A DNA stretch of 64,000 bases from Actinocorallia sp. API 0066 (GTDB lineage Bacteria > Actinomycetota > Actinomycetes > Streptosporangiales > Streptosporangiaceae), in the NCBI RefSeq assembly GCF_020991275.1, contig NZ_JAJLQY010000007.1, positions 1-64,000 of the forward strand. The letters are read 5' to 3'. Positions 4,802 through 23,292 of the stretch are shown piece after piece; position 1 is the stretch's first letter; every line of letters begins with the position of its first letter. The notes below the pieces were generated by a model. The model worked only from the letters and a program-made list of their open reading frames with translations. It was not told where the DNA came from and did not search any database. The translations under genes and the position numbers were made by a program.

Positions 4802-4851
4802 GGAGGCGGCTCGCCGTCGGATGCTCTAGTTTGTGCGGGTGCCGGGGCCCG

Positions 4852-5709
4852 TCAGTCCAGGTATCCCCAGGTCTTGACGGTGTCCAGGAGCCGGGGGTGG
4901 ATCTGTTCGGCGGTGGGCAGCGGGCGGGCCGCCTGGACCTTGCCGGACTTGATGTTGGCGCTCCAGTCGCCGAACACGGGCTTGATCGGGCCGTGGTCCT
5001 GCGCGCCGTAGTCGAGCATCCCGGACTCCCAGGGCAGGTCGAGGTACTCGCAGATGCGCCTGGTCTCGTGCTCGGGGTCGGCGGTGAGGTCCTCGTACCT
5101 GACGGTGACGCCGTCGAGGTGCTGCCTGGCCTCCTCGACGCCGGCGACGTAGTTGTACGTCTCGTCGACGACGTCCTCCACCAGGGCGCCCTTGCGCCGG
5201 TTCATGACGGACTCGACGACGGACTGGGGGTGGCGGAGCAGGAAGATGTACCGGGCCTTGGGCCACGCGCTGTTGATGCGGCGCCAGATCAGGGCGTTGG
5301 CCGGGGTCTTGTCCACGATGACCGCGGCTTTGCTGCGTTCCATCTCGTGGTGCAGGATCCGGTCCCAGAGCAGGTGTTCGAGCTCCTTGCGGGTGAGGCC
5401 GAGCGCCCCCATGACGTCGTCGGTGAACTCACGGCTGGGCTCCACCTTGATCGTGCGCAGGTGCAGCTCGTGCGGCGCGCGGATCTGGGTGTGGCTGTTG
5501 AGGATCACCCGCAGCAGCGTCGAGCCGGAGCGCTGGGAGGACATGACGAACACCGGCGAGGGCACGAGGCGCTTGGCGCCGTGCCGCCGCGTGGGGATCT
5601 CCACCCGGCGCTTGGGCTTGACGCCCGGTGGGCGCAGGGCCTCGGCGAGGTGTTCGGTACGGCGGCGGATGGCCCGCTTGACTGCGGTGCTGCGCTGTGC
5701 TTCCTGCAT
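4852..5709 (-). CDS. PAPS-dependent sulfotransferase family protein
   Basis: A 285-residue sulfotransferase-fold protein that would transfer sulfate from PAPS to a hydroxyl. The 5'-phosphosulfate loop SSQRSGSTLL is at residues 57-66, and the 3'-phosphate-binding segment LLRHPQSVVES has R159 and S163. YEDLTADPEHETRRICEYL later matches the family's C-terminal helix. There is no signal peptide, so it is cytoplasmic. It lies 110 bases downstream of a sulfatase gene on the same strand, so sulfate addition and removal genes are neighbours beside a wall-polymer cluster. The substrate is unknown; envelope glycan or a lipid head group are possibilities. The 5' region (about 5773-5797) is unusually AT-rich, a likely promoter. 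Confidence 0.85.
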   Translation of the reverse strand: MQEAQRSTAVKRAIRRRTEHLAEALRPPGVKPKRRVEIPTRRHGAKRLVPSPVFVMSSQRSGSTLLRVILNSHTQIRAPHELHLRTIKVEPSREFTDDVMGALGLTRKELEHLLWDRILHHEMERSKAAVIVDKTPANALIWRRINSAWPKARYIFLLRHPQSVVESVMNRRKGALVEDVVDETYNYVAGVEEARQHLDGVTVRYEDLTADPEHETRRICEYLDLPWESGMLDYGAQDHGPIKPVFGDWSANIKSGKVQAARPLPTAEQIHPRLLDTVKTWGYLD

Positions 5710-5813
5710 CCCTCATGTCCCGGGTCGTTGGTGGCTCGCAGGAGACGATAGCGACGAACCGTACCAATCTGGACTAATGTTGCTGAATATTAACTGAGAA
5801 ACAGGCAACCTCG

Positions 5814-5828
5814 GCACCATTATGGTGC
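5814..5828. promoter_or_regulatory. Palindrome at the sulfatase 3' end
   Basis: GCACCAT-T-ATGGTGC is a perfect 15-base palindrome spanning the sulfatase stop codon and lying just over 100 bases upstream of the sulfotransferase start. The one-base centre makes a protein-binding site more likely than a hairpin. Its function is unknown. Confidence 0.3.
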
Positions 5829-7343
5829 TCGCCACGCCTGCCTGATGTAGCGAACACCACGGTTGACGATCGCCGGGCGGCTCTTGGCGAGGTCTTTGCG
5901 CTCTCCCGGGTCCTTGCTGAGGTCGTACAGCTCGTACGTCCAGCGGCCGTTCGGCGCCGAGTACTCGTGGCCGGGGGCCCAGCCGATCAGCTTCCAGTTG
6001 CCGAACCGCACGGCGGCCGAGCACTGCCGGCCCCGCCCCTTCTCCAGCGAGCGGTGGGTCTTGGTGGACCCGGCGTGCAGCCGCAGCCAGTAGAGGTACT
6101 CGTGCTTGGGGGCGCCGCCCGTCCCGTTGAGGACCCGGCGCAGCGACAGGCCGTCGTTCTTGGGGGTGCGGGCACCGGCGTAGTCGGCCATCGTGGCCAT
6201 GAGGTCGTAGTGCGCCATCGGGTGTGTGGTGCGCTTGCGGACCGTCCGGCGCAGCAGCTTCGGCGACCAGACGATGAACGGGACACGGGTGCCGCCCTCG
6301 TACAGGTTCCGCTTGATCCCCTTGTAGGGGCCGCTCGCGTTGAAGAACGCGGGCTCCACGCCGTTCTCCTCGTGCGCGCCGTTGTCCCCGGTGAAGACCA
6401 CGATGGTGTTCTCGTCCAGGTCGTTGCGCTTGAGCGTGTCGATCAGCACGCCGACGTAGGCGTCCAGGCGGGTGATCTGGGAGGCGTGCGTCTTGTTGGC
6501 GGGGCTCCAGTCGCGGTTGCGGTACGGCCCGAGATCGCCGATCACCGACGGGGCGTGCGGGAGCGGCAGGGTGAGCATGAGCAGGAACGGGTCGTCCTTG
6601 TTCGCCTCGACGAACTCCAGCGCCCTGTCCATGATCAGGTCCGGGCCGTAGAGCGCGCCGTAGTCGTCGAAGTTGCCCGGCAGCGGCACCCGGTTGCGGT
6701 TGTTCCACAGGAAGCGCGGGTAGTAGCTCTTGGCCTGGTGGTGGGTCATGTAGCCGAAGAACTCGCCGAAGCCCCGCGCGTTGGGGTGGCTTCCCTCGTC
6801 GGCGGAGTTGCGGCCGAACCCCCACTTGCCGAACAGCCCCGTCTTGTACCCGACGGACTGGAGCACGTCGCCGATCGTCCGGGTCCCCGCCGGCAGCGGC
6901 AGCTCGCCCTCCTTCGGCGGGTTGCGCCGGACGGGGTTGTGGCCCGCGTGCAGGCCGGTGAGCAGCGACGCCCGGGACGGCGCGCACACGGGCGCCGAGG
7001 CGTAGGCGTCGGTGAACAGCAGCCCTTCCTTGGCGAGCTGGTCGATCCGCGGCGTCCTGATCTTCGACTGCCCGTACGCCCCGATCTGGCCCCAGCCCAG
7101 GTCGTCGGCGAGGATCACGATGAAGTTCGGCCTGCCCGTGGCGCCGGGGCCGCGCTGGGCGACGTCGTCGGCCCGGACGACCTCGCCGAGCTGGCCGTGC
7201 GGTGAGCTGGGCGGCTGGTCGCCCGCCGCGAGCTTCTCCTTGGGGGCCGGTGCGCCTTCGCGCTGGGACGGCCAGGCCGCGCAGGCGGCCGACCCGGCGG
7301 CCAGCACGCCCGCGCCGAACAGGAAGCGACGCCTGTTACTCAA
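5820..7343 (-). CDS. Exported arylsulfatase-type sulfatase (FGly enzyme)
   Basis: A 507-residue type I sulfatase. Metal ligands are in NFIVILADD (D80, D81), and the formylglycine motif C-A-P-S-R begins at C120 and is followed by ASLLTG, the exact signature for maturation by a formylglycine-generating enzyme (none in the window). KWGFGRNS and FTGDNGAHEENG match the family's later active-site segments. A TTG at 7343 is the likely start: GGAG lies about 7 bases upstream, and it places RRRFLFGAGVLAAGSAAC at the N terminus, a twin-arginine-type signal with a weak lipobox Cys (C21). It therefore probably acts outside the membrane on a sulfated glycan or sulfate ester. It is divergent from the nonulosonate cluster. 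Confidence 0.85.
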   Translation of the reverse strand: MSNRRRFLFGAGVLAAGSAACAAWPSQREGAPAPKEKLAAGDQPPSSPHGQLGEVVRADDVAQRGPGATGRPNFIVILADDLGWGQIGAYGQSKIRTPRIDQLAKEGLLFTDAYASAPVCAPSRASLLTGLHAGHNPVRRNPPKEGELPLPAGTRTIGDVLQSVGYKTGLFGKWGFGRNSADEGSHPNARGFGEFFGYMTHHQAKSYYPRFLWNNRNRVPLPGNFDDYGALYGPDLIMDRALEFVEANKDDPFLLMLTLPLPHAPSVIGDLGPYRNRDWSPANKTHASQITRLDAYVGVLIDTLKRNDLDENTIVVFTGDNGAHEENGVEPAFFNASGPYKGIKRNLYEGGTRVPFIVWSPKLLRRTVRKRTTHPMAHYDLMATMADYAGARTPKNDGLSLRRVLNGTGGAPKHEYLYWLRLHAGSTKTHRSLEKGRGRQCSAAVRFGNWKLIGWAPGHEYSAPNGRWTYELYDLSKDPGERKDLAKSRPAIVNRGVRYIRQAWRAP

Positions 7344-7459
7344 GAGATGGCTCCTGGGGAGTGAGGGGGACCGGAGCAGCTTAGCGAGATCAACGGACAG
7401 GCGAATTGTTAATCGGTTCCGACAGCTCAAGTTGGCCGCCCGTTCATGTGGTTATGCGA

Positions 7460-7497
7460 AGGTTCTGGTGACGGTCAGTCACATCGTGACGGAACCT
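7460..7497. promoter_or_regulatory. Nested inverted repeat in the sulfatase/sialyltransferase divergent region
   Basis: Outer arms AGGTTC (7460-7465) and GAACCT (7492-7497) enclose inner arms GTGAC (7468-7472) and GTCAC (7478-7482). It sits 20-58 bases upstream of the 7518 start in a 174-base divergent intergenic region that must hold promoters for both directions. It is a candidate operator. Confidence 0.4.
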
Positions 7498-7517
7498 ACC
7501 CCGGATTGATAGGTGCC

Positions 7518-8483
7518 ATGACGGAGCTAGCTTGGGTCGAGTCACCCCTGCAGTTGCTGTCTGTGCTGGAGGCGCGGTACGCCGGAGTGCTCGGTCCCGC
7601 GGCGGTCCGGGTGCGCGACGGCTCCGCGGCGCTCGCCGCGACGGCGGCCGAGGCGACGCGGCTGGGCCTCCCGCCTGGCGTGGAACTGGTCGCCGCCCGT
7701 CGCGCCGCGGTGGGCAGGACGGGCTGGGCGCTCGGCGACGCCTTCTCCGGGCAGGCGCAGACGGCGCTGCTCAGGTCGCCCGCACCGCGCAGACTCCTCC
7801 TGGTTGATGACGGTTTGGCCACACTGCACCTGCTCGGGCTGCTTTGCGGGCCGTGGCGGCAGCCGCTCGTCCGGGCGCGCGCCCAGGCGGGCCTTCCGCG
7901 CCGCGCGCTGGGCGCGGTCGCCGGAGCCCGGCTGCGCGCGCTGGCGGCCGACGGAAGGGTCACCGTGTTCACCGGGCTGCCGGTGCCGTCCGCCGTGATG
8001 GCGCGCGCGCACCGGGTGGGCATCAGTGTGGTGCGGCACGACTTCCCGTGGCTGCGCTCGCTGCCCGCCGACCCGCCGCCGGACGAGCGGCTCGTTGTGC
8101 TCGGCACCTCGCTCGTCGCGAACGGGCTCATCGACCGCGAGGCGTACGTGCGGTGGCTGCGGGCGCGGGCTTCGGAGGAGCCGTTCGTCTACCACCCGCA
8201 CCGCAGGGAGAGCGCCGACGTGCTCGACCTGCTGCGCGCCGACCCGCGCGTCAGGGTCCGGGAGTCCGGGCTGCCCGTCGAACTCAGCCTGCGCGGGCTG
8301 ACATCCTGGCACCGTGTGGTGTCACTGCCCTCGACGGCGCTGTCGTCGCTGCGCGTCCTGCTCGGCGGCGACGGGCCCGTGATCGAGGGCGTCACGGTGC
8401 CGTCCGGTTGGTGGACCGACCGTGCCGACGCCTCTCTCCGCACCCATCTCAGCCTTTTCACCGTAGGACCGGAGTTCGCTTGA
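7518..8483 (+). CDS. Sialyltransferase-superfamily enzyme (polysialyltransferase/GT52-like)
   Basis: A 321-residue protein beginning MTELAWVESPLQLLSVLEA, the N-terminal signature of bacterial LOS-sialyltransferase/polysialyltransferase relatives. All three family motifs are present: D/E-D/E-G as D97-D98-G99 (LLLVDDG), HP as H226-P227 (VYHPHRRE) and the S/T motif at S272-T273 (SLPSTALSSL). Known members transfer sialic acid from CMP-sialic acid at the cytoplasmic face of the membrane. With neuA and neuB in the same region, transfer of a CMP-nonulosonate (sialic acid or Kdn-like) to a wall polymer is likely. ATG 7518 follows AGG. It is translationally coupled to the next gene through a TTGA overlap. 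Confidence 0.75.
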   Translation: MTELAWVESPLQLLSVLEARYAGVLGPAAVRVRDGSAALAATAAEATRLGLPPGVELVAARRAAVGRTGWALGDAFSGQAQTALLRSPAPRRLLLVDDGLATLHLLGLLCGPWRQPLVRARAQAGLPRRALGAVAGARLRALAADGRVTVFTGLPVPSAVMARAHRVGISVVRHDFPWLRSLPADPPPDERLVVLGTSLVANGLIDREAYVRWLRARASEEPFVYHPHRRESADVLDLLRADPRVRVRESGLPVELSLRGLTSWHRVVSLPSTALSSLRVLLGGDGPVIEGVTVPSGWWTDRADASLRTHLSLFTVGPEFA

Positions 8484-9640
8484 GACTGCTCGCTGTCGCT
8501 GATTCCGACTCCTACCTGAAGTGGGCCGCCGCGCTGCTGCGCGGGCTGCCCGGCGAACACCGCCTCATCGTGGTGCGCACGCCCATCACGCCCTCGCCCG
8601 AGCAGCGGGCCGCCGCCGTCAGCGGGAGCGGCGAGGAGGTCCCGCCCGTCGTGTCGGCGCAGGCGTTCCGGACGCTGCTGCGCACGTTCGACCCGGACGC
8701 CGTGCTGCTGATGTGCACCGGTCCGGTGGTGCGGGCGCTCGCGCCGTGGGTGTCGCGGGGCCGCCGCCGCGTCCTGGTGTCGGGCCTGCCCGGCATCTCG
8801 GTCCCGGCGACGCGCCGGGCCTGGAAGTTCCGGGCCGCCGCCGACCTCTTCATCGTGCACAGCGCCCGCGAGGTCGCCGAGTTCACCGAGATCGGCGAGT
8901 CGCTCGGGATCCCCGGCCGGGTCGTGCGGACCACGCTGCCCTTCCTGGAGCCCGCGCGCACGCACCGGGCGGCGCAGGAGGACGTCCCGCGCGACCGTGT
9001 GGTGTTCGCGACCCAGGCGAAGGTGCCCGCAGGCAGGGAGCAGCGGGAAGAGGTGCTGCACGCGCTGGCCGCGCTCGCGCTCAGCCGGCCCGACCTGCGT
9101 GTTGTGGTGAAGCTGCGGGCGCGGCGCGGTGAGCAGCAGACGCACCGGGAGGCGCTGCACTACGAGGAGCTGTGGGAGGAGCTGCCCTACGACCGGGACC
9201 TCCTGGAGTTCGACGCGGGCCCGATGTACGTGCAACTGGCCAGGGCCGCCGGGTTCGTCACGGTCAGCTCGACGGCGGCGCTGGAGGCGATCGCCGCCGA
9301 CGCGCCGGTGCTCGTGCTCGGCGACTTCGGCGTGTCGGCCAAGATGATCAACCTGGTGTTCGAGGACAGCGGGCTCATCGGGACGCTCGACGAGCTGGCG
9401 CGCGGCACGTTCCGGCGGCCGTCCGAGCGGTGGTGCGCGGAGAACTACTTCCACCCCGCCGAACAGAACGACTGGACCTCGGCGCTGGAGGAGCTCGTCG
9501 CCAAGGCCGAGACGCTGCCCGCGCCGTACCAGCCGACGCAGAGCAGGTGGGCGCGGACGCGCGGCAGGGCGAGGGTGGAGCTGCCGCCGCCCGCCTACCG
9601 GGCGCTGTTGCGCGCGCGGCGCGCGCTGCGCGGCGTCTGA
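8480..9640 (+). CDS. Putative glycosyltransferase, DUF6716-like
   Basis: A 386-residue protein with GT-B character: MRLLAVADSDSYLKWAAALL at the N terminus, VVFATQAKVP opening the C-terminal half, VVVKLRARRGEQQTHRE where relatives have an HP motif, and VSSTAALEAIAADAPVLVLGD resembling the S/T motif region. It resembles the actinobacterial DUF6716 putative glycosyltransferases, recalled as neighbours of neuA/neuB. Its TTG start overlaps the preceding stop (TTGA), with GGAG just upstream, so the two are made together. The 3' end overlaps the convergent GT2 gene by 46 bases. Activity is unproven. Confidence 0.62.
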   Translation: MRLLAVADSDSYLKWAAALLRGLPGEHRLIVVRTPITPSPEQRAAAVSGSGEEVPPVVSAQAFRTLLRTFDPDAVLLMCTGPVVRALAPWVSRGRRRVLVSGLPGISVPATRRAWKFRAAADLFIVHSAREVAEFTEIGESLGIPGRVVRTTLPFLEPARTHRAAQEDVPRDRVVFATQAKVPAGREQREEVLHALAALALSRPDLRVVVKLRARRGEQQTHREALHYEELWEELPYDRDLLEFDAGPMYVQLARAAGFVTVSSTAALEAIAADAPVLVLGDFGVSAKMINLVFEDSGLIGTLDELARGTFRRPSERWCAENYFHPAEQNDWTSALEELVAKAETLPAPYQPTQSRWARTRGRARVELPPPAYRALLRARRALRGV

Positions 9641-10590
9641 GCGGGGTCGGGCGGCGCGAGGAGTTCGGCGAACAGCTCGCGCCGCTCGGTTGAGGCGCCG
9701 TACAGCACCGACGCGAGCAGCTCGGGAGGGAAGCCGCGCAGGGTGGCGGCGGCACGGGCGCGCTGCGCCTCGCGCAGGGCGGGCGTCAGCCTTGACTCGA
9801 TCTTGATCTGGTTCGCCATGATCGCGCAGTAGTTGCGGATCGCCTTGTAGCGCAGCACGTCGGGTTCGCCGTCGGCGGCGAGGTCGGCGAGCACGGTGTC
9901 GAAGGCGTCGAAGTAGTGCAGTTGGCGGGCGTCGCCGATGCGGGTGAGCGCGGTGGGCGCGTCCCGCCGGTAGAAGACGCCGCCCAGCGGGACGACGGCG
10001 AACGACGCCGCGCGCCGGTACAGCCGCCAGAACCAGGGCCGGTCCTCGGCGGTGTGCAGCCGGGGGTCGAACTCCAGCAGCGGGCCCAGCGACCTGCGGT
10101 AGATCCCGGCCCAGGTGAAGGGGTAGTCCACCATCGACTTGTCGTGCTGCGGCAGGATCGCGGCGCGCGCCGGAAGCCGTTCGCGGGCGCGCGCCTCGGG
10201 CGTCGTGCGCAGCAGCCGTTCCGTGCCGCGCGCCTCGACGTGGTCGGTCATGACGAAGTCGCAGTCCAGCGTCTCGATCGCGGCGACGAGGTCGGCGAGG
10301 TGGCCGGGCCGGATCCAGTCGTCGCCGTCGAGGAAGGTCACGTAGCGGCCCGCCGCCTCGGCGAGGCCGGTGTTGCGCGCGGTGGACGGGCCGCCGGGCT
10401 CCGGCCGGGTGATGACGCGCAGGCCGGGCACGCGGGCACGGCGCAGCAGGTCGCCGGTCGCGTCGGTGGAGCCGTCGTCGACGACGAGGAACTCGTGGCC
10501 GGGCCGCGCGTTCGCGGTCAGGGAGGCGAGCAGGTCCGGGACGTAGGGTGCGACATCACGGACCGGGCTGATCAGCGACAGGACGACCAT
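9595..10590 (-). CDS. GT2 glycosyltransferase, paralogue of the 13213-14172 gene
   Basis: A 331-residue inverting GT-A enzyme. LVVDDGSTD (nucleotide binding), PSTARNTGLAEA and the metal-binding TFLDGDDW are all intact. Its whole length parallels the 13213-14172 product, including SMVDYPFTWAGIYRRSLG and HTAEDRPWFWRLYRR, so one arose from the other by duplication. ATG 10590 has GGAGG about 11 bases upstream and overlaps the end of the preceding gene by 35 bases, so it is the last gene of the neuA-neuB operon. The C terminus is a basic tail (residues about 318-331) antisense to the 8480 gene. The sugar donor is unknown. Confidence 0.78.
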   Translation of the reverse strand: MVVLSLISPVRDVAPYVPDLLASLTANARPGHEFLVVDDGSTDATGDLLRRARVPGLRVITRPEPGGPSTARNTGLAEAAGRYVTFLDGDDWIRPGHLADLVAAIETLDCDFVMTDHVEARGTERLLRTTPEARARERLPARAAILPQHDKSMVDYPFTWAGIYRRSLGPLLEFDPRLHTAEDRPWFWRLYRRAASFAVVPLGGVFYRRDAPTALTRIGDARQLHYFDAFDTVLADLAADGEPDVLRYKAIRNYCAIMANQIKIESRLTPALREAQRARAAATLRGFPPELLASVLYGASTERRELFAELLAPPDPAQTPRSARRARNSAR

Positions 10591-11845
10591 GGCGGGGGCG
10601 GCCTCCGGGAGACAGGACCCGGCGCAGGCGCGTACCCGCCGAGGGGACGGGCAGGTCGAGCGCGGCCAGGCCGGCGGCGGGGAAACGGGAGCGCGGGGCG
10701 GACGGTCCGGCGAGGTGGCGTAGCGCGTCCTCGCGCAGTTCGGGCAGGTGGCCGGGCCGCAGCGTGTAGGCGAGGGCGCGAAGGGACTCCTGGAGGTCGG
10801 CGGCGGGCGGCGGCGCGACGATCCGGCCGCCGCCGGTGAGCCGGGGCACGGTCCGGTCCACGAGCACCGCGGCGACCCGTTCGGCGCCCCCGGCCAGCGC
10901 GCCCGCCCCGAGCGCGGCGACGGCGGTGCCGGGGAGCGCGCCGGCGCGGGCGAGCGCGGCGTACGCGGCGAGTTCCGGCCCGGCGTGCCCGACGACGAGC
11001 GCGGGCCGCACCGACCACGGGTCGGCCACCACGTGCACGGGCACGCCGAGCCGGCGCGCCTCCCGGACCAGGCCGCGCGGCACCGTCTCGCCCGCGAACC
11101 ACACACGCGGGCCGTGCCCGCGCCGGCGCGGGCCCCGGACGAGATCGCCGTCGCCGGGCGGCGGGTCGGGGTCCGGTGTGGCGGGGCGGGCGCGGAGCGC
11201 GGCGCGCAGCGCGGTGGCGGTGAGCCTGTCCTCGACGGCCTGGGGGAGCGCGGCGCGCCGGGTGAGGGACTCGCCCAGCAGGAGGACGCCGTGGGGCGGG
11301 TCTGCCGGAACCCCGAGGAGGGCGGGCAGGGCGGCGAGGGGGATCGGCACGGGCTGTCGGTCGTACTCGTGGAGGAGGACGGGCGAGGCGCCGGGCAGAA
11401 GGTCCAGGTGGAGGAGGGAGGTGATCCGGGAGCCGACGCCCACAGGGAGACGGACGGGGGTGGGGCCGTAGGAGGCGAGGTCGGAGACGCAGACGGTGAT
11501 GCGCGCGCGCGACAGGATCGGGGCGAGCGACCGCAGCCCCGCGATGCCGTCCACGACCAGGTGGAGCGGGCCGGTCAGGGACCAGCGGTCGGTCAGCAGC
11601 CGTTCCAGCACGGGCAGGTCGCCGACGCGCGGGGTCCAGCCGTCCGGGCGCAGCGGCCCGAACTCGTCGTCCCAGCGCAGCACCGTGCCGAACCGGGCGG
11701 CGATCCCGGGGCCCGGCTCCTCCGCCGCGAGCAGCACCGTCCGCCAGCTCGGCCCGGCCGGGAGGAGGCCGGCGGTCAGGGCGGCGGTGTGCGCGGCGAC
11801 GGCCAGCCGGGTCGTCGCCGCGCACACCAGGACGGGGCCGGGCAC
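10556..11845 (-). CDS. Degenerate polysialyltransferase-like protein
   Basis: A 429-residue paralogue of the protein encoded at 11852-13216. The N-terminal halves align well: RWDDEFGPLRPDGWTPRVGDLP versus the paralogue's NAEIAPLHPSGWTPREDELP, and both have SYGPT followed by LPxGVGSRI. The motif that is S-D-G in the paralogue is S-D-L here, and no Lys-Pro-His-Pro stretch exists. Both signature elements of the bacterial sialyltransferases are therefore missing. The C-terminal half is Ala/Pro/Arg-rich. It may be a non-catalytic partner or a decaying duplicate. It lies 6 bases downstream of its paralogue and overlaps the next GT2 start. Confidence 0.62.
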   Translation of the reverse strand: MPGPVLVCAATTRLAVAAHTAALTAGLLPAGPSWRTVLLAAEEPGPGIAARFGTVLRWDDEFGPLRPDGWTPRVGDLPVLERLLTDRWSLTGPLHLVVDGIAGLRSLAPILSRARITVCVSDLASYGPTPVRLPVGVGSRITSLLHLDLLPGASPVLLHEYDRQPVPIPLAALPALLGVPADPPHGVLLLGESLTRRAALPQAVEDRLTATALRAALRARPATPDPDPPPGDGDLVRGPRRRGHGPRVWFAGETVPRGLVREARRLGVPVHVVADPWSVRPALVVGHAGPELAAYAALARAGALPGTAVAALGAGALAGGAERVAAVLVDRTVPRLTGGGRIVAPPPAADLQESLRALAYTLRPGHLPELREDALRHLAGPSAPRSRFPAAGLAALDLPVPSAGTRLRRVLSPGGRPRHGRPVADQPGP

Positions 11846-11851
11846 GGGCCG

Positions 11852-13216
11852 TCAGTCCCGGAACCGGTCGACCTGGCGGAAGGCGCGCAGCGCCATCCTG
11901 CGGCGGCGGCTCGCCCTCGGCACCGCGACCTCGACCGCGCGGTTCGGCGGCAGCCCGCCCGGCAGCCCCAGCGACGTCAGCCTGCGCCGTTTGAAGAACC
12001 GCTGGACCTCGGGCCAGTGCTCCTTCAGATAGGCGGCGGCCTCCGCGCGCAGTTCAGGCCGGGTGCCCGCCTGCATCGCGTAGGTGACCGCCGCGACGAG
12101 CGGCGCGAGCAGCGGCCCGTAGTTCGCGGGCTCGGTGAGGGAGCCGTCCTCGCCGAGCGCGGGCACGGTCGCCTCGACGATCGTCACCGGTATCCGGTTG
12201 CTGTTCTCGTAGGGAGCGAGCCTGTCGAGCAGCATCTCGGCCCCGACGGCGGCGGCCGGGACGCCGTAGTAGCGGGTCGCGGTGACGAGCGCCGTCGAGA
12301 AGCAGCCGACGATCAGTGCGGGCCGAACCGCCGCGCACCACGCCTCGGCCGGTACGGGTTGGTCGACGACCAGGAGCCGAACGCCGAGCCGCCGCGCCTC
12401 GGCCGCCAGGTGTTCGGTCGCCCTGACCGGGCTCGCCGGATGGGGCTTGAAGAGCACGGTCGTGAACCCACGGGCCACGACTCCACGCAGCATCGCCACA
12501 TGAAGGTCATCTTCCTCCTGCGCGCTGAGGATTTCCAGAGCGGCCAGGTACTGACCGACCATCAAAGGGGTGCCTTCGGGCACTTCGGTACCGTCCGGGG
12601 CGGTCAGCGCCCCCCGGACGGCCCCCGTCACCTCGTCCAGGACCTTCCGGAAGGCCGCGTCGGGGATCGTCCGGGACGGCACCCCGTACTCGGCGAGGAG
12701 GTGCGGGACGAGTCCCGGCACCAGGTCGAGGTGAAGGAAGGCGTCGATCCGGCTTCCGACGCCGAGAGGCAGGGTGCTCCGGGTGGGGCCGTAGGACATG
12801 AGCCCGTCGGAGTAGACGGTGATGGGCGCGCCGAAGAACAGGGCGCACAGGGTGCGGGCGGGGGCGACGGCGATGGACTCGACGACGAGCTCGATGTCGT
12901 GTCCGGTCAGCCCCCACCTGTCCCTGAGCCACCGCTCGTACAGCGGCAGCTCGTCCTCGCGCGGCGTCCACCCGGACGGGTGCAGCGGCGCGATCTCCGC
13001 GTTCCAGTCGACGAGCGTGTGGAACCGGTGCGCGAGGGTCTCCCAGCCGGGTTGCGCGGTGAGGCCGGGGGTGAGTTCGGGAATCGCCGCGTTGTTGCTG
13101 ACGACGAGGACGCGGCGGCGGCTCCCGTCGTCGCCCAGGAGACCGGCGTCCAGGGCGGCGGCGAGGGTGAGCGCGCCGAAGGGCGTGGAGGCGAGGAGGA
13201 TCTGCGTGGTGGTCAA
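11852..13216 (-). CDS. Polysialyltransferase-family glycosyltransferase
   Basis: A 454-residue protein starting at a TTG that overlaps the upstream GT2 stop (TTGA), which sets TTTQILLASTPFGALTLAAAL as the N terminus. It carries S136-D137-G138 (VYSDGLMSYGPTRS), an HP motif at H259-P260 (LFKPHPASP) and CFSTALVTATRYYGVPAAA as the S/T region, the order seen in alpha-2,8-polysialyltransferase relatives. Expected role: transfer of CMP-activated nonulosonic acid to a growing wall polymer at the cytoplasmic membrane. It sits in the neuA-neuB-GT2 operon. The linkage and acceptor cannot be read from the sequence. Confidence 0.72.
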   Translation of the reverse strand: MTTTQILLASTPFGALTLAAALDAGLLGDDGSRRRVLVVSNNAAIPELTPGLTAQPGWETLAHRFHTLVDWNAEIAPLHPSGWTPREDELPLYERWLRDRWGLTGHDIELVVESIAVAPARTLCALFFGAPITVYSDGLMSYGPTRSTLPLGVGSRIDAFLHLDLVPGLVPHLLAEYGVPSRTIPDAAFRKVLDEVTGAVRGALTAPDGTEVPEGTPLMVGQYLAALEILSAQEEDDLHVAMLRGVVARGFTTVLFKPHPASPVRATEHLAAEARRLGVRLLVVDQPVPAEAWCAAVRPALIVGCFSTALVTATRYYGVPAAAVGAEMLLDRLAPYENSNRIPVTIVEATVPALGEDGSLTEPANYGPLLAPLVAAVTYAMQAGTRPELRAEAAAYLKEHWPEVQRFFKRRRLTSLGLPGGLPPNRAVEVAVPRASRRRRMALRAFRQVDRFRD

Positions 13217-14172
13217 GCGTCGATGCCCAACAGGTCGGCGAACAGGTCGCGGCGGTCGGTACCGAGGCCGGGCAGGACCTCGGCGAGCGTGTCCGGGGGG
13301 AAACCCTGGACGGTGCGTCGGGCACGGCGGCGCAGTTCCCTGCGCAGCGCGGGGGTGAGCCGGTGACGTTCGTTCAGATGGTGGGCGATCATGGCGCAGT
13401 ACGTGCGGACGGCCTTGCGGCGCAGCCGTACGGCGTCCGGGTCGGCGTCCAGCTCGGCGAGCACGAGGTCGAACGCGTCGAAGAAGTGCAGTTGCCGGGC
13501 GTCCCCGATCCTGGTGAGCGAGCCGGAGACGGAGCGCCGGTAGAACACCCCGGCCAGGGACACGACGGCGTAGCCGGGCACCTCGCGGTGCAGCCGCCAG
13601 ATCCACGGCCGGTCCTCGGCGGTGTGCAGGTGCGGGTGGAAGTGGAGCAGGTCGCCGAGCGAGCGCCGGTAGACGCCCGCCCAGGCGTACGGGTAGTCGA
13701 CCATCGACCTGTCGTGGACGGGCAGGATCGCGTCCCTCGGGTCGAGGACCTCGTCGCGCCTGCCCATCGGGGCCCGGTGCAGGCTGTGCTTGCGCCCGCT
13801 GACCTGGACGTGGTCGACCCTGACGAAGTCGCAGCCGAGCCCCTCGACGGCGTCGGCGAGGGCGGTGAAGTAGCCGGGCGCGACCCAGTCGTCGCCGTCC
13901 AGGAAGGTGACGTACTTTCCCCGGGCGGCGGCCAGGCCGGTGTTGCGGGCACCGGACAGGCCGAGCGCCTCCGGGTTGGTGAGGACCGTCAGGCCGGCGA
14001 CCCCGGACTTGGCGAGCAGCCGCGGGGTGTCGTCCCGCGAGCCGTCGTCCACCGCGAGGAACTCGATGTCCGGGGCCGTGTTCCTCCTGAGGGTGAGCAG
14101 CATGTCGCCGACGTACGCCTGGACGTCGCGCATCGGGATGACGACCGACAGCCGCGGGGCGGGTGTGCCCAT
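13213..14172 (-). CDS. GT2 glycosyltransferase of the nonulosonate operon
   Basis: A 319-residue GT-A fold enzyme: SVVIPMRDVQAYV, FLAVDDGSRDDT, LSGARNTGLAAARGKYVTFLDGDDW (DxD-type metal site), then a conserved SMVDYPYAWAGVYRRSLG block shared only with the 9595-10590 paralogue. The start at 14172 forms an ATGA overlap with the neuB stop, and its own stop overlaps the next TTG start, so neuB, GT2 and the polysialyltransferase-like gene are tightly coupled. It probably adds the non-acidic sugar of the repeat unit, by inference from context. Confidence 0.8.
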   Translation of the reverse strand: MGTPAPRLSVVIPMRDVQAYVGDMLLTLRRNTAPDIEFLAVDDGSRDDTPRLLAKSGVAGLTVLTNPEALGLSGARNTGLAAARGKYVTFLDGDDWVAPGYFTALADAVEGLGCDFVRVDHVQVSGRKHSLHRAPMGRRDEVLDPRDAILPVHDRSMVDYPYAWAGVYRRSLGDLLHFHPHLHTAEDRPWIWRLHREVPGYAVVSLAGVFYRRSVSGSLTRIGDARQLHFFDAFDLVLAELDADPDAVRLRRKAVRTYCAMIAHHLNERHRLTPALRRELRRRARRTVQGFPPDTLAEVLPGLGTDRRDLFADLLGIDA

Positions 14173-15047
14173 CAGGCGGTGGTCCTCCGCAGGCGTTCGC
14201 GCGGCTCGGCCTCGCCCGGGAAGACGCGCTTGACGCCGTCGCCGAGGGCCTGCTCGATCACCCGGATGTCCCGGACGAGGTGCTGGAGGCCGGTCGGCTC
14301 CAGCGACGCGGCGTGGTCGGAGCCCCACATCGTCCGGTCGAGGGTGATGTGCCGCTCGACGGCGCACGCGCCGAGCGTGACGGCGGCGAGGCTGATCTGG
14401 AGGCCGCGCTCGTGCCCTGAGTAGCCCACCGGCACACCGTAGCGCTCACGGAGCGTGGTGATCGTGCGGAGGTTGGCCTCTTCGGCGGGCAGCGGGTAGG
14501 TGGACGTGGCGTGCAGGATGACCAGGTTGTTGGTGCCGAGGATCTCGACGGCCTCGTCGATCTCGGCGATTTCCGACATACCGGTTGAGAGGATCACCGG
14601 CTTGCCCGTCGCGGCGAGCGCCCGCAGGAGTTCACGGTCCGTGATGGACGCGGAGGCGACCTTGTGCGTCACCACGTTGTACTCCTCAAGGAACTCCAGC
14701 GACGGCACGTCCCAGGGGGACGCGAACCACTGGAGGCCGCGCTTGGCGCAGTACTCGTCGATCTCGGCGTACTCCTCCTTGCCGAACTCGACGCGGTGCT
14801 TGTACTCCAGGTACGTCATCTCGCCCCAGGGAGTCGAACGTAGTTTCGACTGCTGGTCGACGGGTACACAGATCTCGGGGGTGCGCTTCTGGAACTTCAC
14901 CGCGTCACAGCCGGCGTTGGCCGCGACGTCGATGAGCTGGCGGCAGATCTTCATGTCGCCGTTGTGGTTGATGCCGATCTCGCCGATCACGTAGACCGGG
15001 TTCCCGTGGCCGACCCGCAGGTCGCCGATGGTGACGGAAGCTGCCAT
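14172..15047 (-). CDS. neuB: NeuB-type nonulosonate (sialic acid/Kdn) synthase, short form
   Basis: A 291-residue TIM-barrel aldolase of the NeuB family, which condenses PEP with a six-carbon sugar (ManNAc, or a 6-phosphate such as mannose-6-P) to give a nine-carbon acid. Visible are VIGEIGINHNGDM (substrate-binding Glu), CDAVKFQKRTPE, FASPWDVPSLEFL, KPVILSTGMS, YSGHERG and CAVERHITLDRTMWGSDH with the two metal-binding His. The usual C-terminal SAF (antifreeze-like) domain of about 60 residues is absent; the protein stops after the barrel. GAGGAA precedes ATG 15047, which lies 2 bases after the neuA stop. The product may be Kdn-type rather than Neu5Ac, given the fused phosphatase upstream. 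Confidence 0.88.
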   Translation of the reverse strand: MAASVTIGDLRVGHGNPVYVIGEIGINHNGDMKICRQLIDVAANAGCDAVKFQKRTPEICVPVDQQSKLRSTPWGEMTYLEYKHRVEFGKEEYAEIDEYCAKRGLQWFASPWDVPSLEFLEEYNVVTHKVASASITDRELLRALAATGKPVILSTGMSEIAEIDEAVEILGTNNLVILHATSTYPLPAEEANLRTITTLRERYGVPVGYSGHERGLQISLAAVTLGACAVERHITLDRTMWGSDHAASLEPTGLQHLVRDIRVIEQALGDGVKRVFPGEAEPRERLRRTTA

Positions 15048-15049
15048 GG

Positions 15050-16216
15050 CTATTCCTCGCTCTTGTTCTTGTGCCTGAGGACCAGGTCGCAGATCTCGCG
15101 GACCGCGCCCCCTCCGCCGGGGCGGGTGAGCACGAGCCTGGCCGCCGCGCGGACGTCCGGATGCGCGGCGGGCACCGCGACCGGCCAGCCCACGAGGGCC
15201 AGACAGCCGAGGTCGTTGACGTCGTTGCCCACGTAGGCGACGCGCGCGGGGTCCCATCCGGCGTCGCGCAGCCACTTGTCCAGCACGGCCGCCTTGTCGG
15301 CGATGCCGTGCAGGACGGGCACCCCGAGCTTGGCGGCGCGCGCCTTCACCACGGGGTTGGTCTCGGTGGAGAGGATGAGGAACGGCACGCCCGCCTTCTT
15401 CAGCAGGGCGACCCCCATCCCGTCCTCGCGGGAGACGGTGACGGTCTCGTGCCCGTCCTGGCCGACTCCGGCCGTGTCGTTGGTGTGCACCCCGTCGAAG
15501 TCGGTGACGACGGCGTCCACGTCGAGCGCCTCGGGCCGGTCGGCCAGCGGGGCCAGGGCCCGCGCCACGGCCAGGTCCTCGGGGGTGTCGATCTCCAGCG
15601 CGTGGGCGCGCGGCACCGGCTGTGCCGCGATCCTGCCGAAGAACCGGTGCCCGTGCCCGAGGAGCCCGCTCGTCCGCATGACGTAGAAGGCGCCCGTCTC
15701 CCGGTAGTGCGGGGCGCGGTCCTGGCGGCGCGGCCGGTAGGCGGCGTCGTGGCCGACCCCGGCCAGCCCGTCCGCGCCTTCGACCCACTGGAACTCGTGC
15801 GTCTCCAGCGCGGCGAAGACGGAGTCGGCGGCGCCGTCCAGGACGCGGGAGACGGCCGCGTCGAGGTCGGCGGGGTCGAGGAACGGCGAGGTGCACTGGA
15901 CGAGCACCGTGATCTCGGGCGGCGCGGGCAGCGCGGCCAGCGCGTGGATCAGCGCGGACTCCGAGGTCGCGCCGTCGCTGGAGAGGTCGTCGGGCCGCTC
16001 GATGATCGCGGCGCCCGCCGCGCGGGCGGCCTCGGCGATCTCCCTGTCGTCGGTGGAGACCAGCACGGTGTCCACCGTCCGGGCCGCGCGGGCGGCACGC
16101 ACCGCCCTGGCGACCAGGGGGACGCCCCCGACCTTTGCCAAGTTCTTACCCGGGACGCCCTTGGAGCCGCCCCGGGCCGGGATCACGCAGACGACCCGTT
16201 CGCTGTGGACTCGCAC
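15050..16216 (-). CDS. neuA: CMP-nonulosonate synthetase fused to a KdsC-like HAD phosphatase
   Basis: A 388-residue two-domain protein. Residues 1 to about 225 are a CMP-N-acylneuraminate cytidylyltransferase: IPARGGSKGVPGKN binds CTP, with VLVQCTSPFLDPADLD and HALEIDTPEDLAVA further on. Residues about 230-388 are a HAD phosphatase of the KdsC type with an intact catalytic pair D239/D241 (TDFDGVHTND), LSTETN as motif II and GNDVNDLGCL as motif IV. It would therefore both dephosphorylate a nonulosonate-9-phosphate and activate the product with CTP. GTG 16216 has GAGGAAA 5 bases upstream. It is first gene of the minus-strand operon. The phosphatase fusion fits a pathway using a 6-phosphorylated hexose. 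Confidence 0.88.
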   Translation of the reverse strand: MRVHSERVVCVIPARGGSKGVPGKNLAKVGGVPLVARAVRAARAARTVDTVLVSTDDREIAEAARAAGAAIIERPDDLSSDGATSESALIHALAALPAPPEITVLVQCTSPFLDPADLDAAVSRVLDGAADSVFAALETHEFQWVEGADGLAGVGHDAAYRPRRQDRAPHYRETGAFYVMRTSGLLGHGHRFFGRIAAQPVPRAHALEIDTPEDLAVARALAPLADRPEALDVDAVVTDFDGVHTNDTAGVGQDGHETVTVSREDGMGVALLKKAGVPFLILSTETNPVVKARAAKLGVPVLHGIADKAAVLDKWLRDAGWDPARVAYVGNDVNDLGCLALVGWPVAVPAAHPDVRAAARLVLTRPGGGGAVREICDLVLRHKNKSEE

Positions 16217-16387
16217 ACACTTTCCTCGTCGTTCGCCGCCCGGTGGTCGGGCAGAGGAGTCCGACGTTAGGAGCCGCGTGTGACGGCCCGTGAGAGGCGA
16301 GGTGAACGAGGCGAGGACGAGGTGTGGACACTGTGCCGTCGGATGCGTACTTTATGTTCCCTTAACGCGTTGCATGATCGTTCGTTC

Positions 16388-16425
16388 GGGCTTCTCTCGC
16401 CTTAGGTCGAGAGCCCGGCTAATGT
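16388..16425 (+). promoter_or_regulatory. Putative promoter and inverted repeat before the 16457 gene
   Basis: CTCTCG (16394-16399) pairs with CGAGAG (16408-16413), flanked by GGGC/CCC, and overlaps the position of a -35 region. TAATGT (16420-16425) is a good -10 hexamer, leaving a leader of about 25 bases. The 240-base divergent region around it (16217-16456) also holds the neuA promoter; nothing else is visible there. Confidence 0.4.
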
Positions 16426-16456
16426 GCTTGTGCTCCCTTGTGACAGGAATTCTCGC

Positions 16457-18298
16457 GTGCCCCACCCCACAGTCAGCGTCATCGTCCCGGTCTACAACTG
16501 CCGGGCGAGCCTGGAGCGCTGTGTCGGTTCGGTGCTCGGCCAGACCCTGGGCGACCTCGAACTGATCTGCGTCGACGACGGCTCGACCGACGACAGCCTC
16601 GACGTGCTGCGACGCTTCACCGACAGCCGCATGATCGTGCTCACCCAGCCGAACTCCGGCGGCCCCGGCGCCCCGCGCAACGCGGGCCTCGACCGCGCGA
16701 CCGGCGAGTTTGTGCTCTTCCTCGACGCCGACGACTGGCTCGGGCCCCGCGCCCTTGAGCTCATGGTCGAGATGGCCGAGGAGAACGCCACCGACATCGT
16801 CATAGGCAAGTACGTCGGAGTGGGCCGCAAGGTGCCCGTCCGGCTGTTCCGCCAGACGGTCGGCAGCACCACGATCCACGACGACAAGCCCGACCTGTAC
16901 GCGACACTCGCGCCGCTCAAGCTGTTCCGCCGCTCCCTGATCGGCGACACCCGGTTCCCCGAGGGGCTGCTCTCGCACGAGGACCAGGAGTTCACCGCCC
17001 TCGCCTACTTCCGGGCCAAGGGCGTGAGCGTGCTCGCCGACTACGACGCCTACTACTGGGTGGAGCGCGAGGACGGCAGCAGCATCATGCAGCAGGGCGG
17101 CGCGCCCGACACCGAGTTCTTCCCGGTGATCGGCAGGGTGATGCGGCTCGTCGAGGAGCACACCGAGCCCGGCCCGGCCCGGGACCGGATGCTGCGGCGG
17201 CACTTCCGCGAGGAGGTCTCGGCCCGGTTCGGCGCCGCCTACCTGGCGGCGTCGCCGGAGCGGCGCGCGATCACCGAGGCCGGTGCCCGTGTGCTCGTCG
17301 AACGGCACCTCACCCCGGCGATCAGCGCGGCCAGCGCCCCGTTCTTCCGTCAGCTCGCGCACTGCCTCACGGACGGCCGCGAGGACCTGATCCCTGAGAT
17401 CGTCGCCTTCGGGACGGCCGAGAAGGTGCCGCCATTGAAGGTCGTGGACGGCAGGGTCTACCAGGACACGCCAGGGTTCGGGGAACTCCCGGACGCCTGC
17501 TTCGACGTCACCGACCGGCTCCCGTTCCACGCCCAGCTCACCGCCGCCCGCTGGGACGGGCCCCGGCTCGTGCTGGAGGGCGACGTCGAGCTGGCGGGCG
17601 GGCGGGCCTCGGACCTCTCGGTGCTGCTGCGGCTGCGCGGCGACGAGCCCGCCGAGCTGGCGTTCCCGGTGGCGTCGGCCGAGCCGTTCCGCGCGGTGCT
17701 GGACTTCGCCGGGACGCCCCTGTCGAAGGGCCGCTGGGACATCGTCGTGCGCGCCGCCCTGGACGGGGTGCCGCTGGCGGCCAGGCCCGCGCTGGGCGAC
17801 CTGGAGACGCCCGACACCCGGTTCGTCCTTGTTGATGACGGCAAGCCCGTCTTGCGCGGCCACCGCACCGACTACGGCAACCTCAGCGTCGACGCCGGAT
17901 GGCAGTCCAGGACGCCGGAGATCGTCGCGTCCGCGCGGGTCGGCCGGGGCGTTGTGCGGGTCACGGGCACGATGCCCGCCAGCGTCCCGGTGACGGTCAA
18001 GGCGAAGCTGCGCGGCTCCGAGGAGGTCGTGGACGCGCCCGCCCGGTTCGACGGCGACGCGTTCACCGCCGACCTGCCGCTCCGGCTCCTGCGCGACGGC
18101 ACCTGGCAGATCGAGTTCGACGTCGCGGGACTGCGCGGCGCGTTCCTGCCGGACGCGCTGGCCGCCGCCCGGGTCGGGCTGCGCCGCTCCGCCCGGCCCT
18201 ACCGCACCACGGGCGGCCGCCTCGCCGTCGCCCTCTCGTCCGCGCCGGTGCTCCCCAGGATCCTCGCCAAACTCGGCCTACGCCGCGGCTGGCCCTGA
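16457..18298 (+). CDS. GT2 glycosyltransferase with C-terminal beta-sandwich modules
   Basis: A 613-residue protein. Residues 1 to about 300 are a GT-A family 2 domain: TVSVIVPVYNCRASLERC, LICVDDGSTDDS, GGPGAPRNAGLDRATGEFVLFLDADDW, and the catalytic-base region LLSHEDQEFTA. The rest is beta-rich, with repeated modules of the kind seen in teichoic-acid glycosyltransferases such as TarS/TarP (LTAARWDGPRLVLEGD, GRWDIVVRAALDG). The same modules occur in the 19945 protein. GTG 16457 is preferred over the upstream ATG at 16424: AGGA is about 10 bases before it and it removes a non-family tail. It heads a plus-strand set with the next two genes; a wall-polymer glycosyltransferase is likely. Confidence 0.8.
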   Translation: MPHPTVSVIVPVYNCRASLERCVGSVLGQTLGDLELICVDDGSTDDSLDVLRRFTDSRMIVLTQPNSGGPGAPRNAGLDRATGEFVLFLDADDWLGPRALELMVEMAEENATDIVIGKYVGVGRKVPVRLFRQTVGSTTIHDDKPDLYATLAPLKLFRRSLIGDTRFPEGLLSHEDQEFTALAYFRAKGVSVLADYDAYYWVEREDGSSIMQQGGAPDTEFFPVIGRVMRLVEEHTEPGPARDRMLRRHFREEVSARFGAAYLAASPERRAITEAGARVLVERHLTPAISAASAPFFRQLAHCLTDGREDLIPEIVAFGTAEKVPPLKVVDGRVYQDTPGFGELPDACFDVTDRLPFHAQLTAARWDGPRLVLEGDVELAGGRASDLSVLLRLRGDEPAELAFPVASAEPFRAVLDFAGTPLSKGRWDIVVRAALDGVPLAARPALGDLETPDTRFVLVDDGKPVLRGHRTDYGNLSVDAGWQSRTPEIVASARVGRGVVRVTGTMPASVPVTVKAKLRGSEEVVDAPARFDGDAFTADLPLRLLRDGTWQIEFDVAGLRGAFLPDALAAARVGLRRSARPYRTTGGRLAVALSSAPVLPRILAKLGLRRGWP

Positions 18299-18333
18299 GC
18301 GTCCACCAAACACACATATCCTCTGCTGTTGAG

Positions 18334-19818
18334 ATGTCTGCCAGATCCCGGTGGGTCGGGACGGCGGGGCTCGCCGCTGTCCTGCTCTCCGTGGGTCTCG
18401 GCGTGTTCGCCTGCCTCCTCGGACCCTCCAACACGGTGCCCCAGAGCGGCGGCGGATGGTCCCTCAAGGCCGATCCGAGCGCGCTGCTCGTTGTTGTGCT
18501 CACCTTCGCCATGGTCGGGTTCGGCGCGCTCGGCGTCTGCCTGTGCCTGCTGGCGCTGCGGTGGGGCTGGCGGCCGTCGCTCCGGCTGCTGCTGGCCGGG
18601 GGGCTGGGCGCGGCCCTCGTGTACGCGCTGGTGCCGGTGGGGGGCTCCACCGACGTCCAGAGCTACGCCCTCTACGGGCGGATGCTCCTGCTCGGGCATG
18701 ATCCGTACCAGACCGTCCCGCAACTGCTGATCGACCTGCGCGACCCCGTCGCCAAGTACGCGCCGCAGGCGTGGCGGCGGACGCCCTCGGTCTACGGGCC
18801 CGTCTCGAACTGGATCTTCGCGGCGGCGGCCTGGGCGGGCGGCGCGTCGATGTACGCGATCGTCTCGCTGCTCAAGGTCGCCGCGTTCGGCGCGTTCGCC
18901 GTGGTGGCGCTCGTGCTGGACCGCATCGCCGGTGACACCACGGCCAGGATCCGCGCGCACCTGCTGTGGACCTGCAACCCGCTCATGCTGTGGGCCTGTG
19001 TGGCGGGCGCGCACAACGACGTGTACGGCGCGGCGTTCATGGCGCTGGCCTTCGCCGTCTTCTTCCGGGCGGGCGCGCGCACCCCGGTCTGGGCCGCCGG
19101 CATGTACGCGGGCGCGCTGATCGGGCTGGCCGGGGGCGTCAAGGCGCCGTTCTTCGTCGCCGGGCTGGGGCTGGCGTGGGTGGCGCGGCGCTCGTGGCCG
19201 ACGCTGGCCGGGCTGCTCGGCGGCGTCGTCGCCACCGGGCTCGGCGGCTACCTGCTGGCCGGGCCGCGCGCCTTCGAGATCCTGGCGGACAAGGCGCAGG
19301 ACGTCTCACCGACCAACCCGTGGCGTTTCCTCCCGCGCTGGGGCGTTGAGCTGACCTACGGGCAGATGAACCAGCTCGGCTATCTCGCGGGCGCGGTGAT
19401 CCTCGGCGCGCTGCTGTGGAAACTGACGCCCGCGACGACCCGGCAGGGGCAGGCGGCCCGCGTGTCGTTCGCGGTCGGCGCGGCGCTGCTGTTCGTCTCG
19501 CCGGTGCAGCACCCCTGGTACGACCCGCTGATCTTTCCGCTGCTCGCGCTCGCCCCGGCCACCCGGATCGACGGCCTGACGCAGCTCCGGCTGGCCGTCG
19601 GATCGCTCGGTTTCCTGCCCGGCGTCCCGCAGTTCCGGGGCGACCCGTGGCCGGACCCGATGCCGTTCGTGCGGGACCCGGTGAACAACTGGTGGACGTC
19701 GGCGGGGCTCGGGATCCTCGCGGTGGCCGCCGTGATCGTCGTACTCCTCCCGGAACGCCGGGCCACGGAAACGGACTCCCCAGCGGAAACGGGAGTTCCG
19801 GCGCTCGCCGGAAAGTGA
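18334..19818 (+). CDS. GT-C polyprenyl-phosphate mannosyltransferase (MptA/MptB-like)
   Basis: A 494-residue integral membrane protein with about 12 hydrophobic segments. The first external loop carries STDVQSYALYGRMLLLGHDPY, closely matching the D..SY..YG......DPY signature of MptA/MptB alpha-1,6-mannosyltransferases (GT87-type), which take mannose from polyprenyl-phosphate-mannose outside the membrane. Other conserved pieces are WTCNPLMLWACVAGAHNDVYG and SPVQHPWYDPLIFPLLAL. The ATG at 18334 has no good Shine-Dalgarno site; TATCCT lies 11 bases upstream, suggesting a very short leader. Neighbouring manB/manC-type genes could supply the donor. The acceptor is not identifiable. Confidence 0.72.
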   Translation: MSARSRWVGTAGLAAVLLSVGLGVFACLLGPSNTVPQSGGGWSLKADPSALLVVVLTFAMVGFGALGVCLCLLALRWGWRPSLRLLLAGGLGAALVYALVPVGGSTDVQSYALYGRMLLLGHDPYQTVPQLLIDLRDPVAKYAPQAWRRTPSVYGPVSNWIFAAAAWAGGASMYAIVSLLKVAAFGAFAVVALVLDRIAGDTTARIRAHLLWTCNPLMLWACVAGAHNDVYGAAFMALAFAVFFRAGARTPVWAAGMYAGALIGLAGGVKAPFFVAGLGLAWVARRSWPTLAGLLGGVVATGLGGYLLAGPRAFEILADKAQDVSPTNPWRFLPRWGVELTYGQMNQLGYLAGAVILGALLWKLTPATTRQGQAARVSFAVGAALLFVSPVQHPWYDPLIFPLLALAPATRIDGLTQLRLAVGSLGFLPGVPQFRGDPWPDPMPFVRDPVNNWWTSAGLGILAVAAVIVVLLPERRATETDSPAETGVPALAGK

Positions 19819-23286: not shown

Positions 23287-23292
23287 CGCCCA

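Follow-up and report, generated by a model that had tools for sequence, protein, structure and literature searches.

Positions 7518-16216 of a 64,000-nucleotide stretch of Actinocorallia sp. API 0066 (positions 1 to 64,000 of contig NZ_JAJLQY010000007.1; referred to as the window) are filled by eight genes with predicted roles in the synthesis and polymerization of a nonulosonic acid, which are organized in two operons. The genes are lettered A to H in the order of the plus strand, with A and B encoded on the plus strand and H to C on the minus strand:

A, 7518..8483, plus strand: unclassified protein, possibly a GT52-like transferase of Kdn (2-keto-3-deoxynononic acid) that caps or branches; DDG, HRR, and PST triplets
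B, 8480..9640, plus strand: DUF6716 protein, homologue of Escherichia coli K1 NeuE (PF20471, E=1.9e-128), proposed Kdn-priming transferase
C, 9595..10590, minus strand: second GT2 glycosyltransferase (PF00535, 3.9e-27) with VDDGSTD, DGDDW, and EDRPWFWRL motifs
D, 10556..11845, minus strand: polysialyltransferase paralogue that lacks the catalytic motifs; no Pfam match for the copy in the window
E, 11852..13216, minus strand: member of the polysialyltransferase family (PF07388, 4.2e-32) with SDG, PHP, and FST motifs, proposed Kdn polymerase
F, 13213..14172, minus strand: GT2 glycosyltransferase (PF00535, 1.1e-25) with a DGDDW motif, proposed hexosyltransferase partner of E
G, 14172..15047, minus strand: NeuB-type nonulosonate synthase without SAF domain (PF03102, 1.3e-85)
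H, 15050..16216, minus strand: cytidine monophosphate (CMP)-nonulosonate synthetase fused to a KdsC-type HAD phosphatase (PF02348, 1.8e-26), with PARGGS, DFDG, and GNDVND motifs

The two operons are not arranged back-to-back, as stated in the initial annotation, but converge tail to tail, with an overlap of 46 bases between B and C. The overlaps of 2-4 bases given there are present at two of the seven junctions (A/B and E/F, 4 bases each) but not at the other five, where the overlaps of C/D and F/G amount to 35 bases and 1 base, and D/E and G/H are separated by gaps of 6 and 2 bases. Pfam supports the claimed neuA-HAD (H), neuB (G), DUF6716 (B), and two GT2 genes (C and F), whereas A and D of the window match no Pfam family at E≤1. 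Searches of PHROGs with A, B, D, and E and a scan of positions 4000-20000 with Rfam yielded no match, and scans for promoters and terminators gave no informative signal. The codon bias of the eight genes resembles that of the neighbouring genes. The genome has a size of 7.0 Mb; Actinocorallia is a small genus, of which three genomes were compared, and among named genomes, Actinocorallia populi gives the best NeuB match.

Domains, gene order, and a conserved gene set support the earlier claim of a nonulosonic-acid glycopolymer cluster like the one described in Streptomyces coelicolor, an observation that proved largely real. It is fairly probable that the cluster makes a nonulosonic acid, most likely Kdn, and polymerizes it into a wall glycopolymer of the teichulosonic-acid type. 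Genes for NeuA, NeuB, GT2, PF07388, and DUF6716 proteins are clustered with gene A, which is the gene set of a teichulosonic-acid locus if the set of S. coelicolor is deduced from gene order and names. The recurrence of this set was followed in 152 loci, comprising 80 named loci (the best 80 matches to G, of which more exist) and 72 loci from other genomes; some species are counted twice, the score thresholds were set in this analysis, and recurrence is given as counts rather than as a formal chance figure. A, B, E, F, G, and H are all present in 104 of the 152 loci, and six further Streptomyces-like loci have A, E, F, G, and H together with a copy of B that scores under the threshold. The remaining 42 loci possess smaller sets (among them 14 EFGH, 8 BEFGH, 5 EF, 4 BGH, and 2 ABGH), some of which reflect contig ends or a location of A and B further away. 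A DUF6716 gene was found in the genomes of all seven EFG- or EFGH-only loci that were checked genome-wide, and other loci, such as BGH and EF, represent genuine differences in gene set. Most often, the genes are ordered H G F E, followed by B and A on the opposite strand. In six of the seven loci compared from the Streptomyces-like genus g70, by contrast, E F lies to one side and B H G A to the other, while locus L159 contains a second copy of DUF6716.

Published accounts (sources of this and all further background: PMC11481543, PMC13011467, PMC13274773, PMC8269224, PMC2267785, PMC6200933, PMC7831098, PMC8003754, PMC6113628, PMC5517516, PMC2408645, PMC5654933) describe SCO4873-SCO4882 of S. 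coelicolor as a teichulosonic-acid cluster under the control of PhoP and the polymer of Streptomyces as phosphate-free galactose-Kdn (Gal-Kdn) repeats in the wall. They also report that the proteins of an SCO4873-SCO4882-type cluster rise in a phosphate-stressed mutant of Streptomyces lividans, and that the counterparts in Planobispora rosea, which are labelled as teichuronic acid genes, behave like phosphate-starvation genes. In the present set of loci, PHO boxes with a score of at least 18 of 22 occur upstream of A in 25 of 107 loci (vs 3.9 percent of shuffles) and upstream of H in 11 of 139 (vs 3.4 percent of shuffles), with no excess upstream of F (4/140) and B (3/115). The window itself gives an equivocal PHO-box signal, with best scores of 15 (A) and 18 (H) of 22. 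Genome G068, in which A, B, and E are accompanied by no more than a partial match to NeuB, counts against the proposed function of the cluster; its two contigs end within F.

Among the proteins assigned to chain formation, E clearly exceeds the cut-off of PF07388 (GT38 type; 112.4 vs 23.3 bits) and has retained intact D-G, HP, and S-T motifs, which supports its previous designation as polysialyltransferase-like. In a solved polysialyltransferase, the D/E-D/E-G motif supplies the catalytic base through its glutamate, and the histidine of the HP motif is important for the use of the donor. A GT2 gene ends at most 300 bases upstream of 139 of the 149 open reading frames (ORFs) of the E family, and the two genes overlap by 4 bases in 83 of these 139 pairs, as do F and E in the window. 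Together with the Gal-Kdn repeat of the Streptomyces polymer, the motifs and the pairing suggest that E and F may build the chain in turn. Less favourable to this assignment are the weak pairwise match between E and NeuS of E. coli UTI89 (0.010 over 62 positions around HP and S-S) and the lack of a sequence match between E and solved polysialyltransferases; no convincing hit to a solved structure was obtained with A, B, or E (best E-value 0.19). In loci L139, L153, and L154, a GT2 gene and a motif-intact (EG, HP, ST) E-type gene are located beside a TagF-like gene, on contigs other than those that carry the full NeuB of the same genomes.

The second polysialyltransferase of the initial annotation is a different case. 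D and E are paralogues (39 percent, 5.0e-33; 100 percent in a profile comparison), but the motifs of D do not support a role as second polymerase: it has S-D at the column of the D-G motif of E, with an aspartate one column later, and lacks both HP and S-T. The copy in the window does not match PF07388, which is matched by two of the five D-type proteins (best 8.4e-18). Among 147 E-family sequences of more than 300 residues, 135 have DG, HP, and ST, four have EG, HP, and ST, and three combine HP and ST with another pair; the remaining five have neither an acidic residue at that column nor HP, and four of them also lack ST. These five D-types, which are D of the window, its orthologue in genome G001, a copy in Actinomadura rudentiformis (L053), and one protein each in genomes G119 and G139, form a clade with a support of 0.979 in a midpoint-rooted tree of 39 sequences with long branches. 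In G139, which consists of a single contig, the D-type gene and a GT2 gene lie beside TagF-like and ABC (ATP-binding cassette)-transporter-like genes (the latter judged by eye); this genome has no DUF6716 gene and only a partial NeuB match of 22.7-29 bits, as in all ten genomes compared. Because the D subfamily lacks the acidic residue and the HP motif of E and occurs in a genome without full NeuB, the notion of two polysialyltransferases was only half right. The D-types look like an old, tolerated, and probably non-catalytic subfamily that may have no need for CMP-Kdn. An origin of D as a recent decay product of E is unlikely; D groups with proteins of other genera, with the reservation that long branches can attract.

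One possible function of D, which appears somewhat less probable than not, is that D and C together form a unit that assembles a different wall polymer, for instance the teichoic acid of the adjoining locus, and has no part in Kdn transfer; D may then act as a live pseudo-enzyme that partners a GT2 protein. The arrangement in G139 fits this explanation, as do the common clade of the D-types and the two TagF-like genes that follow in the window. D also seems to be under some constraint, since the comparison with its G001 orthologue gives a ratio of nonsynonymous to synonymous substitutions (dN/dS) of 0.58 and no internal stop; however, this ratio is the highest among the eight genes (0.12 to 0.44 for the others), and together with the 78 gapped columns of the alignment it also fits slow decay. 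Moreover, the support of the D-type clade is perhaps inflated by long branches, and D and C are located within the neu operon of the window. C groups (0.981) with a C-type GT2 of A. populi that has no D beside it, which makes D dispensable in that species; because the E gene and the C-type gene of A. populi abut and leave no room, no remnant of D is present between them.

On sequence grounds, B and E. coli K1 NeuE belong to one family, DUF6716. Both B (428.7 bits) and NeuE of UTI89 (56.6 bits) score over the cut-off of PF20471 (27), and a BLASTP comparison of the two proteins gives 3e-10 with 17 percent identity over 233 aligned positions. The connection was already implicit in RefSeq, since the product encoded in UTI89 between the polysialyltransferase gene and neuC, where neuE stands in the order neuDBACES, is named 'DUF6716 putative glycosyltransferase'; the term DUF6716 itself was not found in the literature searched.

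The distribution of DUF6716 follows that of NeuB. In an even, phylum-wide sample of 296 genomes, for which the scans of both families had the same size and handles, DUF6716 is matched in 16 genomes (over the cut-off in 12) and NeuB in 43 (with an identity of at least 64 percent in 12), and the 12 genomes of each set are exactly the same. The probability of such an agreement by chance would be about 10^-21 if the genomes were independent and about 10^-11 by genus, values that are too strong given the relatedness of the genomes and the choice of the line. Within this sample, six genomes of genus g70 have both proteins and two have neither. In 25 further genomes, which were chosen and not drawn at random, DUF6716 is over the cut-off in 12, of which 11 also have NeuB (the exception is G068), and none of the other 13 has a full-length NeuB. 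PF07388 is absent from four of the five genomes with both DUF6716 and NeuB that lie outside the genome of the window and the Streptomyces-like genus, which makes B, rather than E, the constant partner of NeuB. Because DUF6716 tracks NeuB even in these four genomes, B is the best candidate for the priming of the chain with Kdn. The strength of the association is reduced by several points: the 64 percent line was drawn after the results were seen, 43 of the 296 genomes have some NeuB match, DUF6716 is unmatched in the next four NeuB genomes (50 to 60 percent identity), G354 at 60 percent being nearest below the line, and the DUF6716 matches of four genomes are under the cut-off.

The role of NeuE has been viewed in two ways. 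According to a 2017 paper, NeuE, NeuS, and KpsC are the minimum for de novo synthesis, with the exact role of NeuE undetermined. A second paper finds that overproduction of NeuS makes NeuE dispensable and suggests that NeuE has a structural role; in line with that proposal, B could be a non-transferase assembly factor that stabilizes or anchors polymerase E. The suppression of NeuE loss by NeuS and the absence from E. coli NeuE of a histidine (H222) shared by all 13 actinobacterial sequences in alignment A5 both speak for such a factor and against a transferase. Nevertheless, it is an unlikely explanation. The persistence of B in genomes where no PF07388 protein was found favours a transferase role, and weak similarities point in the same direction: PF05159, the family of the capsule transferases KpsC and KpsS for Kdo (3-deoxy-D-manno-octulosonic acid), is matched by 11 of 28 B members (best 0.0047; B itself reaches 13.8 bits and remains under the cut-off of 20), and DUF6716 is in turn matched by the gene at the kpsS position of UTI89 (0.0038). 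A wider proposal, for which the chances are slightly below even, is that DUF6716 proteins are the transferases that generally prime nonulosonic-acid polymers, in Gram-positive walls as well as in the E. coli K1 capsule and rhizobial loci, with E. coli NeuE as a partly degenerate member. If true, the actinobacterial forms, which have conserved residues that were lost in E. coli NeuE, would reveal the function of NeuE.

In the case of A, the initial annotation had listed DDG, HP, and S/T motifs. D97-D98-G99 and P271-S272-T273 are indeed invariant in 13 members, including those of the Streptomyces type, but the widest alignment shows H228-R229-R230 instead of a conserved HP motif (13/13). The spacing of the triplets is close to that of DG, HP, and ST in E, and a profile comparison of A and E is colinear through the motifs (E 0.028 for a single comparison, probability 1.8 percent); the probabilities among A, B, and E are near zero throughout (1.2, 1.8, and 0.9 percent). 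In a second profile comparison with column-shuffled controls (100 each), A-E scored 2.2 (vs a shuffled mean of 3.1 and a maximum of 8.6) and B-E 3.1 (vs 3.3 and 9.4), and A-B reached 8.4 (vs a 95th percentile of 7.7 and a maximum of 10.5). PF07922 (GT52) is matched neither by A of the window nor by any of 21 members, and by one of 13 relatives at E=0.19; the Pfam search of the 21 members returned a single match, to an unrelated family (0.017). The motifs of A fit the GT52-like nature claimed previously, but none of these searches places the protein in GT52. Because the shuffled controls do not support homology, the order DDG, H-R, and P-S-T is a lead rather than a homology result, and A may be regarded as a candidate GT52-like protein in this sense.

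Among the precursor genes, G exceeds the cut-off of PF03102 (287.2 vs 22.1 bits) and stops where the SAF domain would start, with no Pfam match for SAF; in E. coli NeuB, by contrast, Pfam recognizes both NeuB and SAF. The 30 commonest lengths among 144 NeuB ORFs range from 287 to 333 residues. G is the sole full-length NeuB match of its genome, with a second, partial match of 27.3 bits. In the window, H and G are separate genes, but they share one open frame in 69 of the 76 named loci with both genes in view and in 110 of 139 over all loci, repeats included. The resulting NeuA-phosphatase/NeuB proteins of the named loci (L015-L094; e.g., L018, L035, L076, and L078) comprise about 680 residues, and the presence of synthase, phosphatase, and cytidylyltransferase in one chain provides good support for their consecutive action. 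A phosphomannomutase gene at 55367-56725, over its cut-off, and a phosphomannose-isomerase-like gene in the region 55367-57941, under its cut-off, are a possible source of mannose-6-phosphate.

Judging from the genes, the sugar is most likely Kdn. The model for Kdn-9-phosphate phosphatase (NF058599, NCBIfam) matches H only under its cut-off (82.4 vs 180 bits), so the assignment has to be deduced; the KdsC-type models likewise remain under their cut-offs, and these points count against Kdn. A different nonulosonic acid of the N-acetylneuraminic (Neu5Ac), legionaminic, or pseudaminic type is nevertheless improbable. In its favour, the NeuB and NeuA models for these types match as well, all under their cut-offs, and a DUF6716 gene of Tritonibacter is located between a NeuA-type gene and pseF. 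Against it, no NeuC-type epimerase was seen among 28 window proteins scanned (part of the genes of the window, not the whole genome), the HAD phosphatase domain of H agrees with a precursor that is phosphorylated, and the polymer attributed to this locus type in Streptomyces is reported as Kdn.

The preferred reading, a Kdn-containing wall polymer, can be outlined as follows. Judging from the domains, G would join phosphoenolpyruvate to mannose-6-phosphate, the HAD domain of H would remove the 9-phosphate, and the NeuA domain of H would form CMP-Kdn. B may place the first Kdn on a lipid-linked linkage unit, and E and F, the products of the overlapping gene pair, would alternate Kdn and hexose, as family, pairing, and the Gal-Kdn repeat of S. 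coelicolor suggest. The addition of a terminal or branching Kdn by A would be the weakest step; D is presumably a non-catalytic paralogue of E, and C probably an additional GT2 protein. The strength of these proposals falls from Kdn to priming by B, to alternation by E and F, and to capping by A.

New here are the identification of DUF6716 with the NeuE family and its partnership with NeuB, the motif-less polysialyltransferase subfamily, and the three-step CMP-sugar fusion in relatives. The analysis proposes roles for unannotated genes of a main wall polymer of streptomycetes and their relatives and points out a subfamily of inactive-looking sialyltransferases in several genera. In the genomes sampled, DUF6716 constantly accompanies Kdn-type NeuB, also in the four that have no PF07388 match, and the NeuE question thereby becomes testable with enzymes of harmless soil bacteria.

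Two genes beside A are not part of the eight-gene cluster:

Sulfotransferase, 4852..5709, minus strand: PF13469, 1.4e-30; same neighbours as the sulfatase
Sulfatase, 5820..7430, minus strand: PF00884, 5.7e-58; divergent from A; a TAT (twin-arginine translocation) leader is possible (TAT_signal only 0.32)

The same pair (4852-7430) is located beside A in both other Actinocorallia genomes and in G068, and a sulfotransferase that is 51 percent identical lies near the Streptomyces-like locus L158. With these neighbours, a sulfated polymer is conceivable. On the other side, the Kdn locus adjoins a locus of the teichoic-acid type (16424-26955), which consists of a GT2 gene with a TarS linker domain and two large TagF-like genes. 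The window also contains two genes for glycopolymer ligases of the LCP (LytR-CpsA-Psr) family (28292-29719 and 34452-35993) and F420 biosynthesis genes of the cofD and fbiB type (45048-47287).

NeuB, NeuA, NeuE (DUF6716), and NeuS (PF07388) of the neuDBACES locus of E. coli K1 all have counterparts in the window, but neither NeuC nor NeuD is among the eight genes. Moreover, the domain joined to NeuA in the window is a phosphatase rather than one of the GDSL-esterase type, the SAF domain is missing from NeuB, and the polymerase is paired with a GT2 protein, suggesting an alternating chain. On pSymB of Sinorhizobium meliloti (CP140934), a NeuB without SAF, a NeuA-HAD that is 47 percent identical to H, and an adjacent DUF6716 gene are present as in the window; pSymB differs in having a CST-I / GT8-type sialyltransferase gene alongside and, at a distance of about 11 kb, a gene labelled 'polysialyltransferase family'. 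DUF6716 is next to NeuA-HAD on a plasmid of Tritonibacter as well. The cluster also corresponds to SCO4873-SCO4882 of S. coelicolor, which has the same six core genes if they are mapped by order and published names alone. The order E F / B H G A of genus g70 fits SCO4877-SCO4882, and the published names of SCO4877-SCO4881 agree. Because gene order and names fit the published teichulosonic-acid locus, this kind of locus was already known. The operons of the window converge, whereas those of S. coelicolor diverge, and the window adds a second GT2, the motif-less D, the sulfotransferase, and the sulfatase.

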